Source: Georhizobium profundi (GTDB taxonomy: Bacteria > Pseudomonadota > Alphaproteobacteria > Rhizobiales > Rhizobiaceae). From it: a DNA stretch of 64,000 nt. The stretch is taken from the NCBI RefSeq assembly GCF_003952725.1, contig NZ_CP032509.1, forward strand, positions 248,001-312,000. Direction: 5' to 3'. Below are positions 42,812 through 48,079 of the stretch, in pieces. The number at the start of each line of letters is the position of its first letter. Position 1 is the first letter of the stretch. The translations under genes and the position numbers were made by a program. The notes beneath the pieces were generated by a model. It saw only the letters and a list, made by a program, of their open reading frames with translations, searched no databases and was not told the origin of the DNA.

Positions 42812-43915
42812 ATGGGCGCTTACATCGCGCGTCGCCTGCTTTTGATGATCCCGACGATCTTCGGCATCATGGCGATCTCATTTGCCGTCATTCAGTTTGC
42901 CCCAGGCGGGCCGGTCGAGCAGGTCATCGCCGACCTGACCGGCCAGGGCGATGGTCTGTCCGATCGCATCGGCGGCGGCAGCGGTGACCTCGGCGCGGGT
43001 CAGCAATTTTCCGGCAATGACGGAAGCTCGTCGCGCTATCGCGGCGCGCAGGGGCTCGATCCGCAGTTCATCGCGCAGCTCGAAGCGCAATTCGGCTTCG
43101 ACAAGCCGCCGCTCGAGCGCTTCGCCACGATGATCTGGAACTATCTGCGCTTCGATTTCGGCAACAGCTATTTCCGCGACGTCTCGGTAATCGATCTCAT
43201 CATCGAGAAATTGCCCGTTTCCATCTCGCTCGGCGTCTGGATCCTGCTTTTATCCTACATCATCTCCATACCACTCGGCATCAAGAAGGCCATGGAGGAT
43301 GGTTCGCGCTTCGATGTGTGGACGTCCGGCATCATTATCGTCGCCTATGCGGTTCCGGGCTTCCTGTTCGGCATTCTTCTGATCGTGCTCTTTGCCGGCG
43401 GTTCGTTCTTCGACTGGTTCCCACTGCGTGGTCTCGTTTCGGATAATTTCGCCCAGCTCTCCTGGTGGGAGAAGATCATCGACTATTTCTGGCACCTGAC
43501 GCTGCCGCTTCTGTCGCTCGCGCTCGCGGCCTTTGCCACGACGACGCTTCTGACCAAGAACTCGTTCATCGACGAGATCCGCAAGCAATATGTGACGACC
43601 GCGCGGGCGAAGGGCCTTTCGGAGCGCTCGGTGCTCTACAAGCACGTTTTCCGCAACGCGATGCTGATCATCATCGCCGGCTTTCCGGCGGCCTTCATCT
43701 CGGCCTTCTTCACCGGATCGCTGCTCATCGAAACCATCTTCTCGCTCGACGGCCTCGGTCGCCTCGGCTTCGAATCCGTCGTGCGGCGCGATTACCCGGT
43801 CGTGTTCGCGACGCTCTACATCTTCTCGCTCATGGGGCTCCTGATCGGGCTTCTGTCCGACCTCGTCTACACGTGGGTCGATCCGCGGATCGATTTCGAG
43901 CGGAGGGATGTCTGA
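42812..43915 (+). CDS. yejB: Microcin C/peptide ABC transporter permease YejB
   Basis: A 367-residue inner-membrane permease. The N-terminus [20 protein letters not shown] and [14 protein letters not shown] are typical of YejB, and there is a characteristic long periplasmic insert between the first two membrane segments (Gly/Ser-rich, ~residues 45-85). The EAA loop reads [20 protein letters not shown]. It forms the channel with YejE, whose start overlaps its last 8 nt. Confidence 0.94.
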
Positions 43916-45113
43916 CATGAGCGTCACCCAGCCTATTCCGCCCGCCGAGCGCTCGGCGCCCGTAGAGACGCCGGGACCGGGCACCGATACGCCCGTCGCG
44001 CCTCCGCGTCCGCAGCGCGCATTTTTGTCGCCGATGAACCGGCGCCGCTGGCAAAACTTCAAGGCCAATAGACGCGGCTACTGGTCGATGTGGATCTTCC
44101 TCGTCGTGTTCGTGCTGGCCATGCTGGCCGAATTCATAGCCAACGATCGCCCGATCATCGCGTCCTACAATGGCGAGATCCTCTTTCCTGTCGTCGTCGA
44201 CTATCCGGAAGAGAAATTCGGCGGCTTCCTCGCGCAGACAGACTATCGCGACCCCTTCATCCAGGAGGAGATCGAGGCAAATGGCTGGATGATCTGGCCG
44301 CCGATCCGCTATTCCTACCAGACGGCGAATTCCAACATCCCGCGCTCGGCACCGACCCCGCCATTCTGGATGATGAGCGAGAGCGAGCGTTGTTCGGCCT
44401 ATCCGTTGGGACCGGACGATCCCAATTGCACGCTCGGCAACATGAACTGGCTCGGCACGGACGACCAGGCGCGCGACGTGAGCGCCCGCCTGATCTACGG
44501 GTTCCGCATCTCCGTGCTCTTCGGGCTCATCCTCACGGCGGCATCGGCCGTCGTCGGCGTCGCTTCCGGTGCCGTGCAGGGTTATTTCGGCGGCTGGACC
44601 GACCTTATCCTGCAGCGCTTCATTGAGATCTGGTCCTCGATGCCCGTGCTCTACATTCTCCTGATCATCGCCGCGATCCTGCCGCCGGGCTTCTGGATAT
44701 TGCTCGGCATCATGCTGCTCTTTTCCTGGGTCGCCTTCGTCGGCATCGTGCGCGCGGAATTCCTGCGGGCGCGCAATTTCGAATATGTGAATGCGGCCCG
44801 TGCGCTCGGCGTGTCGAACACCACGATCATGTTCCGCCACCTGCTGCCCAACGCCATGGTCGCCACGCTCACCTTCCTGCCCTTCATCCTGTCGGGCTCG
44901 ATCACGACGCTGACCTCGCTGGATTTCTTGGGCTTTGGCCTGCCCCCCGGCTCGCCATCGCTCGGCGAGATGATCGCGCAGGGACAGCGCAATTTGCAGG
45001 CCCCCTGGCTCGGCATCACCGCTTTCCTCGTCATATCTCTGATGCTCTCGCTTTTGATCTTCATCGGCGAAGCGACCCGCGACGCCTTCGATCCACGCAA
45101 GACTTTCCGGTAA
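43908..45113 (+). CDS. yejE: Microcin C/peptide ABC transporter permease YejE
   Basis: A 401-residue permease with a long N-terminal Pro-rich cytoplasmic tail, then a first membrane segment ([20 protein letters not shown]) and the YejE-type periplasmic loop ending [19 protein letters not shown]. The EAA loop is [20 protein letters not shown]. It overlaps yejB by 8 nt (a second in-frame ATG is at 43917). Its stop codon is embedded in a strong AGGAGG sequence that now precedes only a 16-codon frame and vapB rather than yejF. Confidence 0.94.
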
Positions 45114-45122
45114 GGAGGCTGA

Positions 45123-45151
45123 ATGGTAGATTATAGGAACATTTCTACCAT
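45123..45151 (+). promoter_or_regulatory. Probable VapBC operator (inverted repeat)
   Basis: ATGGTAGA (45123-45130) and TCTACCAT (45144-45151) are a perfect 8-bp dyad separated by 13 nt, centred 27 nt before the vapB start. VapB-VapC complexes normally repress their own promoter through such a repeat. An AT-rich stretch (TTATAG) in the spacer could serve as a -10 element. The left half coincides with the orphan ATG that follows yejE. Confidence 0.6.
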
Positions 45152-45173
45152 GGAGCCGGAACGATGGGCTTGA
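45123..45173 (+). CDS. 16-codon leader frame, possible relic of the original yejF start
   Basis: Directly after the yejE stop, AGGAGG (45113-45118) is followed by ATG at 45123 and 15 further codons to TGA at 45171-45173, overlapping the vapB start. Such a strong ribosome binding site in front of a meaningless peptide is best explained as the former start of yejF, displaced when vapBC entered. It could also be a leader that couples translation of vapB to yejE. It is not likely to encode a functional peptide. Confidence 0.35.
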   Translation: MVDYRNISTMEPERWA

Positions 45174-45412
45174 ACATCAAGAACGAGAAAGTGGAGCGCC
45201 TTGCACGCCAGCTTTCGGTGCAGACGGGTGAAACCCTGACGGGCGCGATCGAAAAAGCTCTTGAAGAACGTCTGGCGCGGCTCAAGGAGAAGACAGAGGT
45301 TCAAGTGCGACTGCAACGGATTCGCGAGGTCACACGCAATCTTCCGCCACCACCGCCCGGCTTTACCAGCGACCATTCCGATCTCTACGACGAAGATGGT
45401 CTTCCGGTATGA
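45164..45412 (+). CDS. vapB: Type II antitoxin, VapB family
   Basis: An 82-residue antitoxin. The N-terminal ~40 residues (LNIKNEKVERLARQLSVQTG, then ETLTGAIEKALEERLARL) match the ribbon-helix-helix-like PSK/Rv0623-type VapB DNA-binding domain; the C-terminal tail is Pro-rich and acidic (LPPPPPGFTSDHSDLYDEDG), as expected for the toxin-neutralising segment. GGAG lies 8 nt before the ATG. Its stop overlaps the vapC start by 4 nt. It is inserted between yejE and yejF. Confidence 0.9.
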   Translation: MGLNIKNEKVERLARQLSVQTGETLTGAIEKALEERLARLKEKTEVQVRLQRIREVTRNLPPPPPGFTSDHSDLYDEDGLPV

Positions 45413-45801
45413 TTGTGGATGCATCGGCTCTTCTGGCCATCATTCTGGGCGAAGACGAAAAGGCTGAGTTCGAAGAAGTGCTCGCCGTGATGGACGGCGA
45501 CCTTTCCATCTCTCCAGTCAATTACGTCGAAGCCTTCGTGCGGCTATCTCGTCTCGATCGACAAGACTGCATCATCGCATTGGACCATTTGATCGAGGCG
45601 GCCGGTATTCGAATTGAACCCGTGACCGAAGCCCATGCGCACCTCGCACGGCAGGCACACGTGACCTACGGCAAGGGCAATCATCCTGCGCGTCTCAATC
45701 TCGGCGATTGTTTCGCCTATGCACTGTCCAAGGCGGAACGCCTTCCGCTTCTCTTCAAAGGCGATGATTTTCGCCAAACCGACATAAAGGCAGCGCTTTG
45801 A
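45409..45801 (+). CDS. vapC: Type II toxin, VapC family PIN-domain ribonuclease
   Basis: A 130-residue PIN-domain endoribonuclease; VapC toxins cleave tRNA or rRNA when released from VapB. The acidic metal-binding residues are all present: Asp4 (IVDASALLA), Glu41 (VNYVEAF), Asp100 (LNLGDCFAYA) and Asp119 (KGDDF). The toxin therefore looks intact. It overlaps vapB by 4 nt and yejF by 4 nt (TTGA), so the toxin-antitoxin pair is translationally linked into the transporter operon. Confidence 0.92.
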   Translation: MIVDASALLAIILGEDEKAEFEEVLAVMDGDLSISPVNYVEAFVRLSRLDRQDCIIALDHLIEAAGIRIEPVTEAHAHLARQAHVTYGKGNHPARLNLGDCFAYALSKAERLPLLFKGDDFRQTDIKAAL

Positions 45802-47438
45802 CAGCCGCGACCACCACCCCTCTCCTTTCCGTCCAGGATCTCTCCGTCGCTTTCCATCAGGAGGGCATCACCGTTCCGGCGGTCGATCACGTGTCGTTCG
45901 ACATCCATGCTGGCGAAACGGTGGCGCTGGTCGGGGAGTCCGGGTCGGGCAAGTCGGTCTCCGCGCTTTCGGTTCTCAAACTTCTGCCCTATCCGGCCGC
46001 GAGCCATCCATCGGGACGGATCCTGTTCGATGGGCAGGACCTGCTGTCGGCGGATGCGAAGGCGCTGCGGCGCGTGCGCGGCAACGACATCACAATGATC
46101 TTTCAGGAGCCGATGACGTCGCTCAATCCGCTCCATTCCATCGAAAAGCAGATTGCCGAAATCCTGATGCTGCATCAGGGCATCCGCGAAAACGAAGCGC
46201 GGCCGCAGGTGATCGACCTCATGCATCAGGTCGGTATCCGAGAGCCGGAGAAGCGGCTTGAAGCGTTTCCGCATCAGCTGTCGGGTGGCCAGCGCCAGCG
46301 CGTCATGATCGCCATGGCGCTCGCCAACCGGCCGAAGCTGCTGATTGCCGACGAGCCGACGACTGCGCTGGACGTGACAGTTCAGGCACAGATCCTTGAG
46401 CTTTTGAAGTCGCTGAAGGACAAGCACGGCATGGCCATGCTGTTCATCACCCACGATCTCGGCATCGTGCGCAAGATCGCCGATCGCGTCTGCGTCATGA
46501 CCAAGGGCAAGATCGTCGAGACGGGACCGACGGCGGAGATCTTTGCCAATCCGCAACACGACTATACGCGCCATCTGCTGGCGGCCGAGCCAAAGGGCCG
46601 CGCGCCGGCCTTGAACGAAAACGCCCCCGTCGTGCTTTCCGGCACCGGCGTGAAGGTCTGGTTCCCGATCAAGAAGGGCTTCCTGCGCAAGACCGTCGAC
46701 CATGTGAAGGCGGTCGATGGCATCGATCTGGAACTGCGCGCCGGCCAGACGCTCGGCGTCGTCGGCGAATCCGGTTCCGGCAAGACCACGCTTGGCCTGG
46801 CATTGACGCGCCTGATCGCGTCGGAAGGACGCATCGGCTTCGTCGGCAAGGACATCAACGCCTTTTCCTTCGCCGAGATGAAGCCGCTGCGCAACCGCAT
46901 GCAGGTGGTGTTCCAGGATCCCTACGGCTCACTGTCTCCGCGCATGTCCGTGGCGGAAATCGTGGCCGAGGGGCTTGCGATCCATGAGCCCAAGCTGTCC
47001 GCCAGCGAGCGTGACGCCAAAGTCGTCGAAGCGCTGCAGGAAGTGGGCCTCAACCCGGAAACCCGCTTCCGCTATCCGCATGAATTTTCCGGTGGCCAGA
47101 GGCAGCGCATCGCGATCGCCCGCGCCATGGTGCTGAAACCGCGTTTCGTCATGCTGGACGAGCCGACCTCGGCGCTCGACATGAGCGTGCAGGCGCAGGT
47201 GGTCGATCTGTTACGCGACCTGCAGAAGAAGCACGATCTGGCCTATCTCTTCATCAGCCACGATCTGAAGGTCGTGCGTGCGCTCGCCAACGAGGTGATG
47301 GTGATGCGCAACGGCAGGGTGGTCGAACGCGGCTCATCCGACCAGATCTTCGACAACCCGCAGACGGACTACACCAAGGCGTTGATGGCGGCAGCTTTCG
47401 GCATGGAGACCGTGGCCAGGGAAGCGGTGAACCAGTGA
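45798..47438 (+). CDS. yejF: Microcin C/peptide ABC transporter ATP-binding protein YejF (double ATPase)
   Basis: A 546-residue ATPase with two ABC domains that energises YejABE. Walker A motifs are GESGSGKS (first) and GESGSGKT (second), signatures [12 protein letters not shown] and [12 protein letters not shown], Walker [13 protein letters not shown] and [12 protein letters not shown]. The only usable start is TTG 45798, overlapping the vapC stop, with a weak AAGG 7 nt upstream. A TTG start here contrasts with the strong AGGAGG-ATG left behind after yejE, consistent with insertion of vapBC in front of yejF. Its stop overlaps the next gene (GTGA). Confidence 0.94.
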
Positions 47439-48079
47439 CCGACACCGCGATCGACCTCAAGGACGGCGAAAGCCGCATCCGCATCGACGCGCGCGAGACG
47501 GTGTTTTCCAGCTTTCGCACCTATGATCTCGTCACCTTCGCGGAAGCCAACGAGGCGGCCGGTCCGGTGGAGCCGGATGACGGCGCACCGGTGCTGACGC
47601 GCGAGCTTCTCGTGACCCATCGCACCGCTGCCGTGCTGCCCTATGATCAGCGCAGCGGCGACATCATCCTGCTCCGGCAGTTCCGGCTCGCGGCGCATCT
47701 GCGCACCGGGCGCGGCATGATGATCGAGATCGTCGCCGGCGCCGTCGATGCCGGCGAAGACATCGAGGCTGCCGCCCTGCGCGAACTGACCGAAGAAACG
47801 GGTCTCGTCGCTGAAAGGCTGCACTGGGCGGCCGACTTTCTGCCGTCGCCGGGCATGTCGGACGAGTACGCCACGCTCTTCGTTGCGCCGGTCGATGCGA
47901 CAGCGCTTCATGCGCAAGCCGGCACGGATGAGGACGAGACGATCTTCCCGTTTCGCGTCTCGCTCAAAGATGCCATTGCGGCTGCGGATGCCGGCCACAT
48001 CACGAACGGTTTCACGCTCATCGCGCTTAACTGGTTTGCCCGCCACCACACCCGCTTCGTCGATCTTCGGGACGCATGA
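47435..48079 (+). CDS. Nudix hydrolase (ADP-ribose pyrophosphatase-like)
   Basis: A 214-residue hydrolase with the Nudix box GAVDAGEDIEAAALRELTEE followed by TGL, and upstream ILLRQFRLAAHLRTGRGMMIE, typical of the ADP-sugar pyrophosphatase branch. It probably cleaves ADP-ribose or another nucleoside diphosphate derivative. The GTG start overlaps the yejF stop by 4 nt and its own stop overlaps the next gene, so all three are co-translated. The functional link with peptide uptake is not obvious. Confidence 0.9.
   Translation: MTDTAIDLKDGESRIRIDARETVFSSFRTYDLVTFAEANEAAGPVEPDDGAPVLTRELLVTHRTAAVLPYDQRSGDIILLRQFRLAAHLRTGRGMMIEIVAGAVDAGEDIEAAALRELTEETGLVAERLHWAADFLPSPGMSDEYATLFVAPVDATALHAQAGTDEDETIFPFRVSLKDAIAAADAGHITNGFTLIALNWFARHHTRFVDLRDA

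Follow-up and report, generated by a model that had tools for sequence, protein, structure and literature searches.

Predicted toxin–antitoxin pairs recur between yejE and yejF, a slot in a peptide importer operon, across an order of bacteria

How did a vapBC toxin–antitoxin (TA) pair come to lie inside the yej peptide importer operon of Georhizobium profundi, and does it serve the importer? The window, i.e., the whole 64,000-nt stretch of DNA analysed here, encodes yejB, yejE, vapB, vapC and yejF on one strand (Table 1). The original prediction, that vapBC lies between yejE and yejF and that 4-nt overlaps link vapB to vapC and vapC to yejF, was confirmed together with its coordinates: the first overlap is ATGA, and the TTG start of yejF sits within the vapC stop (TTGA). 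The yejE stop is a TAA (45111–45113), and the site between yejE and yejF is hereafter called the slot. The best NCBIfam match of YejF was the microcin C transporter YejF model, though with a score below its cut-off.

Table 1 Features of the yej locus and the slot in the window.
Feature	Position	Strand	Basis or remark
yejB permease	42812..43915	+	NCBIfam PRK15133, 542 bits, above cut-off
yejE permease, left flank of slot	43908..45113	+	NCBIfam PRK15021, 456 bits, above cut-off
Inverted repeat, putative VapBC operator at vapB promoter	45117..45157	+	arms 45117-45130 and 45144-45157
16-codon open frame, ATG 45123	45123..45173	+	sequence; ATG within left arm of putative operator
vapB antitoxin, 82 aa	45164..45412	+	PF07704, Pfam 80.8 bits (cut-off 28.3)
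vapC toxin, PIN domain, 130 aa	45409..45801	+	Pfam 62.1 bits (cut-off 23.6)
yejF ATPase, right flank of slot	45798..47438	+	NCBIfam PRK15134, 788.6 bits, below cut-off 834

In Pfam, VapB matched PF07704 (E = 1.5e-22) and VapC the PIN domain PF01850 (E = 9.7e-17). PF07704 antitoxins partner VapC30, and VapC30 (4xgq) was the sole solved relative of VapC at E ≤ 0.001 (E = 7.6e-20). Residues D4, E41, D100 and D125 of VapC, which we take to be catalytic, are invariant across nine aligned slot VapCs. Neither VapB nor VapC matched an NCBIfam model, and PADLOC gave no match for the four proteins submitted. The locus combines a PIN toxin that has conserved acidic residues with an upstream, overlapping PF07704 antitoxin, and the pair is probably an intact, self-regulated VapBC. 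It shares with VapB30/VapC30-like systems the gene order, the 4-nt overlap, the PF07704 antitoxin, the acidic PIN toxin and a palindromic operator-like site; it differs from them in being embedded in the yej operon, where it overlaps the next gene, and in that slot alleles of sister species differ strongly from one another.

Directly after the yejE stop, an AGGAGG (45113–45118) and an ATG that opens a 16-codon frame are present as first described, and had been read as the old yejF start. That reading of the ATG is rejected. The ATG falls within an inverted repeat, in the left of its two arms, which are 14 nt each and 86% complementary, and 34 of 48 intact vapBC loci have a corresponding motif (TGGTA-N15/16-TCTACC) ahead of vapB (spacer 15 in 31, 16 in 3), compared with none of 204 empty junctions, among which some genomes count twice. 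As the motif recurs before vapB and never in empty junctions, we assign the ATG to the presumed control region of vap, and the palindrome is probably the vap operator. Within this site, 18 of the 48 intact loci have TGGTATAAT, which presumably resembles an extended -10 promoter element. Where relatives without vapBC were compared, yejF does not begin at an ATG of this type. The AGGAGG, for its part, may be a yejF ribosome site that predates the insert, since a purine-rich run directly follows the yejE stop in the nearest empty relatives as well (TGAGGGGA and TGAGGGAG; TAAGGAGG in the window).

The comparison within the genus covers two genus mates (G001 and G002), and in both yejE adjoins yejF, ending 11 nt before the yejF TTG, which upholds the view that vapBC interrupts the operon in the window. 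This TTG may be a vapBC fossil, but a GTG at −4 lies in the same frame. Among the 80 named loci listed as best by yejE similarity, none had vapBC at the junction; 62 had a gap without a gene, 17 a different pair, and one a membrane protein. In Pararhizobium haloflavum (L005), the end of a gap of ~65 nt has a 14-nt match to the vapC tail, of which 5 nt also belong to the yejF start, and is a possible vapBC scar. Gaps of 99 and 73 nt in two other loci (L217 and L218) include a TTGA resembling that of the vapC tail, in front of the yejF core or close to it; these are perhaps vapBC relics. For the genus of the window, a gain here and a loss in its sisters are indistinguishable.

To profile the slot more widely, vapC was searched in 297 genomes of the family, and the 29 best matches after the window's own were all located between yejE and yejF. 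A yejE search (E ≤ 1e-110) had a match in 145 of 151 family genomes; 144 of these loci and the window's own gave 143 usable junctions, the count being without L281 (whose yejE lacks a stop) and L171 (whose contig ends before yejF). A total of 98 junctions were empty and 45 occupied, with scarred junctions that had no scored gene (L217, L218, L190 and others) counted as empty. The occupied junctions held vapBC (n = 21; 20 intact and L277 broken), a second PIN-type TA pair that we label AT2-PIN2 (n = 18, whether whole, broken or combined, with L252 included on a weak fragment only), or a CDF-like gene alone (n = 6). L171 also has AT2 and PIN2. Outside the family, 50 genomes of our own choice, weighted to one family (f28, 8 genomes), gave 31 empty and 19 occupied junctions: 10 with the second pair (toxin split in L422 and truncated in L404), 4 with a PIN toxin but no AT2 match, 2 with tandem pairs, 2 with vapBC relics, and 1 with a CDF-like gene. 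The second pair and tandem arrays thus recur in other families. Lower vapC matches supplied 16 extra loci, kept outside all counts, with 9 at yej, 6 elsewhere and one (L293) unplaced. Mostly one genome per species was sampled, and the named (80), family (143), order and allele loci partly overlap (e.g., L004 is L143).

Models of VapB, VapC, AT2, PIN2 and CDF had no match on either strand of 233 yejB–yejE junctions, which served as the control site and in which some genomes again count twice as the locus sets overlap; only 3 of the 233 exceeded 120 nt. The same models had no match on the minus strand of the yejE–yejF junctions, where the biggest gap without explained content was 304 nt (L402); this gap holds a small ORF with, by eye, a signal-peptide-like start. 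In 45 of the 48 intact vapBC loci, the vapC stop contains an NTG that is in frame with yejF (39 TTGA and 6 GTGA), and the three without the overlap are tandem loci. The arrangement is more than chance: the genus mates are nearly gapless, and the overlaps recur in dozens of further loci. As the comparison shows, the yejE–yejF junction repeatedly holds predicted TA pairs across the order, on the operon strand.

This breadth bears on the history first proposed, a single recent insertion at this lineage's old yejF start. That the two genus mates have no vapBC at the junction agrees with it, but the same arrangement, overlap and operator motif occur in many other genera, the slot elsewhere houses other pairs, the supposed start lies in an arm of the putative operator, and L005 may carry a vapC-tail scar. 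We regard such a one-off event as very unlikely; of the original history, the interruption of adjacent yejE and yejF stands, and the relic ATG and the singular insertion do not.

The contents of the slot are diverse. AT2-PIN2 consists of an antitoxin unrelated to VapB followed by a PIN toxin of a subgroup other than that of VapC, and in 37 of 42 loci the stop codon of the toxin gene overlaps the reading frame of yejF (31 ATGA, 5 CTGA and 1 GTGA); the AT2 antitoxin tested had no significant match in Pfam or PADLOC. Three of the four lone slot PIN toxins come from one family (f43; L388/L420, L395 and L401), where the toxin accompanies an open frame and no recognised antitoxin. The fourth (L438, 10–840 after the yejE stop) has a longer upstream ORF with, by eye, an HTH-like start and an AT2-like tail, a possible swap of the DNA-binding part. 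A gene for a CDF-type cation transporter, identified by eye, occupies the slot alone or after the second TA pair (AT2-PIN2) in L203, L215, L222, L223, L225, L237, L231, L244, L262 and L434, and L006 (10–577 after the yejE stop) encodes a membrane protein of 189 aa that has no clear Pfam family. The site hosts vapBC, AT2-PIN2, the CDF-like gene and the membrane protein of L006, and the last two show that the slot is not TA-specific.

Where elements are combined, their order was the same in all seven composites: vapBC precedes AT2-PIN2 (L288, L406, L411 and, with a vapB relic, L245), and AT2-PIN2 precedes the CDF-like gene (L231, L244 and L262). This constancy is what would be expected from an ancestral array of yejE, vapBC, the second TA pair and yejF (plus the CDF gene in one branch) that underwent differential loss and fast divergence in place, and the relics in L407, L409 and L277 and the vapC-tail-like scar in L005 agree with it. 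We nonetheless judge such an array unlikely, in part because of L411 (genome G523), whose order is yejE, vapBC, a copy of the yejF start, a copy of the yejE end, AT2-PIN2 and yejF. The copies comprise 32 nt of its own yejF start and 45 nt of its own yejE end, both at 100% identity, and two yej junctions with different cassettes that were joined and then lost the middle would leave this pattern. L411 is the sole fossil joint among 144 junctions scanned, and an assembly error is possible. The tandem loci L406 and L288 had no copies of the yejF start or yejE end, and the remaining end-fragment matches outside L411 (12–35 nt) were taken as chance.

Decay in the slot is uneven. In seven loci the antitoxin is whole and the toxin broken or missing (L277, L192, L404, L288, L244, L422 and L177), which active toxins would lead one to expect. 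Against toxin-first decay, both vapBC partners are damaged or gone in L245, L407 and L409, and three genomes of family f43 have a PIN toxin without an antitoxin. On balance, the decay would fit toxins that are harmful when alone.

On a tree of yejE and yejF (FastTree, 165 rows, with 14 of the 80 named loci included), the vapBC label required 17 changes, at least 13 of them on starred branches; the corresponding figures for the second pair were 14 and 13. Among 30 clusters with YejE and YejF at least 95% identical, 12 had mixed contents and 14 were all empty. Judged from these genomes, slot contents differ between species with nearly identical YejE and YejF, and so do alleles: in some species pairs YejE and YejF are ~97–100% identical and the toxins 43–69%. 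L248 and L303 share 100% of YejE, 97.9% of YejF and 62.9% of VapC, and L034 and L043 share 99.4%, 96.9% and, for PIN2, 43.3%; VapC identity is 64.9% for L121 and L140 and 65.2% for L254 and L255. Other pairs of similar flank identity have toxins that are ~96% identical. This bimodal spread, with 43% toxins beside a 99.4% YejE, is hard to obtain by rate from an ancestral array.

At the DNA level, yejE and yejF were 90–100% identical in L248/L115, L254/L255 and L121/L140, the cassette fell to 30–80%, and the vapC end returned to 82–96%. L254/L255 retain 94–96% identity over the operator and the first half of vapB. We infer that the end of vapB and the start of vapC are swapped as a unit, which would concern binding specificity. 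L181/L124 has a similar cassette drop with flanks less alike, and in five further profiled pairs the cassette roughly tracks the flanks. A control from non-slot VapCs, covering genus g30 only, gave 91.7–100% identity (two loci, 6 pairs) compared with 62.9–86.4% for its slot VapCs (10 pairs); what varies in g30 is therefore the location rather than the protein family, which also counts against divergence of an ancestral array.

Phylogenetic conflict was assessed for seven groups using AU tests, and four were rejected as clades: L254 with L255 (p = 0.008), L121 with L140 (p = 0.0007), a nine-member PIN2 cluster (p = 2e-53), and L034 with L043 (p = 4e-76), though these p-values are weakened because the groups were picked after the identities had been seen. 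The rejections are a further point against an ancestral array. One clade was not rejected for five g30 VapCs (p = 0.66) or for the L038 group (p = 0.10), and the group of L229, L135 and L127 already came out as a clade, in agreement with vertical descent. VapC distances correlate with YejE distances (Mantel r = 0.53, against at most 0.27 in 2000 permutations). Vertical inheritance only was rejected as an explanation: the vertical signal exists, but VapC and YejE nearest neighbours agree in just 5 of 44 cases and close pairs conflict. Against a reading by exchange, VapC is a short protein with a mostly weak tree.

Overall, in several pairs cassette divergence far exceeds flank divergence and is accompanied by phylogenetic conflict. 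We think it probable that the yej slot is fixed and that recombination through the yej genes on either side swaps its TA cassettes. Homologous recombination would carry a cassette from the yej locus of one strain into that of another, with the conserved yejE and yejF serving as arms; some exchange events would yield two cassettes in tandem, and deletions would give rise to relics or empty junctions. VapB–VapC would bind the palindrome and repress its own promoter. The start–stop overlaps would maintain yejF translation, so the insert would be tolerated.

The closest matches of the window's own allele were at 99%, then at 94% and 76% on short contigs, and then at 65%; no donor was identified among the sequence matches. 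Positions 46250–47750, comprising the latter portion of yejF and the beginning of the gene after it (NUDIX-like, as judged by eye), are 98–100% identical to Rhizobium albus (L004), and identity upstream of the slot is 75–95%, a jump that is a sign of recent recombination beside the slot. A plasmid or phage TA module as the source was rejected, as there are no near copies: the 43 plasmid records found at E ≤ 1e-20 were all below 60% identity, and the two phage records at E ≤ 1e-5 were at 43% and 34%.

Whether the pair serves the importer is a separate matter. The original prediction made yejF dependent on toxin translation and raised joint control of peptide uptake and growth. The coupling of yejF to vapC translation is plausible, since the yejF TTG lies inside the vapC stop as in most intact loci, and the pair could then have been kept because YejF synthesis or peptide import is tied to TA state and growth; an operator-like site of its own within the operon is in line with this, as is the import of the antibiotic phazolicin by YejABEF in Sinorhizobium meliloti, described in a passage of PMC10128002. 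We consider it quite unlikely as the reason for retention. Most family genomes are without an insert (98 of 143), sister species lack the pair, unrelated pairs and a CDF-like gene occur at the same place, and part of a 2020 review rejects function by location for mazEF and yafNO (PMC7167474). Joint control would thus not be required by the comparison, and the most likely role of the pair is self-maintenance (addiction), perhaps reinforced by allele competition, and not a dedicated control of peptide import.

That competition might extend further, with the junction an order-wide locus of TA allele exchange whose diversity is kept by selection between alleles, e.g., because antitoxins of one allele fail to neutralise toxins of another, or because of an arms race against phages or competing bacteria. 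The carrier would be a peptide importer that also admits antibiotics; if so, pair and importer would stabilise each other, as the toxin would punish a deletion spanning both. We hold this extension to be doubtful.

TA sites of this general kind are known from Escherichia coli. Passages in two articles place relA-mazEF-mazG and dinB-yafNO-yafP in operons and folA-ccd-apaH in an intergenic site (PMC7167474; PMC7232551), and the first, a review, treats relA-mazEF-mazG and dinB-yafNO in part of its text as intra-operon pairs without a functional link, at plastic insertion sites, whose mode of movement is unknown (PMC7167474). As described in those passages, the E. coli sites share with the yej slot a fixed place, an undisturbed gene pair, frequent absence and alternative contents (PMC7167474; PMC7232551). 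At yej, as at relA-mazG, pairs are present or absent with the operon intact either way, and different elements occur at the site. Unlike the E. coli sites, the yej slot is in use in several families, holds two unrelated TA types in alternation or in tandem, has cassettes that mismatch their flanks, and in one locus retains duplicated junction ends. Literature searches that paired TA or vapBC with yej genes yielded no account of the slot, some matches being judged by title or the start of the abstract, and the term 'antitoxin' is absent from the main texts on Yej in Agrobacterium (PMC9790009) and Sinorhizobium (PMC10128002).

The locus is ordinary in its parts and unusual as a slot. It offers a natural experiment in which a single place can be compared across many species, with two unrelated TA types, unoccupied sites, relics, tandems and a fossil joint, and it makes exchange via flanking genes testable in harmless soil bacteria. 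It also cautions against reading joint function from operon position.
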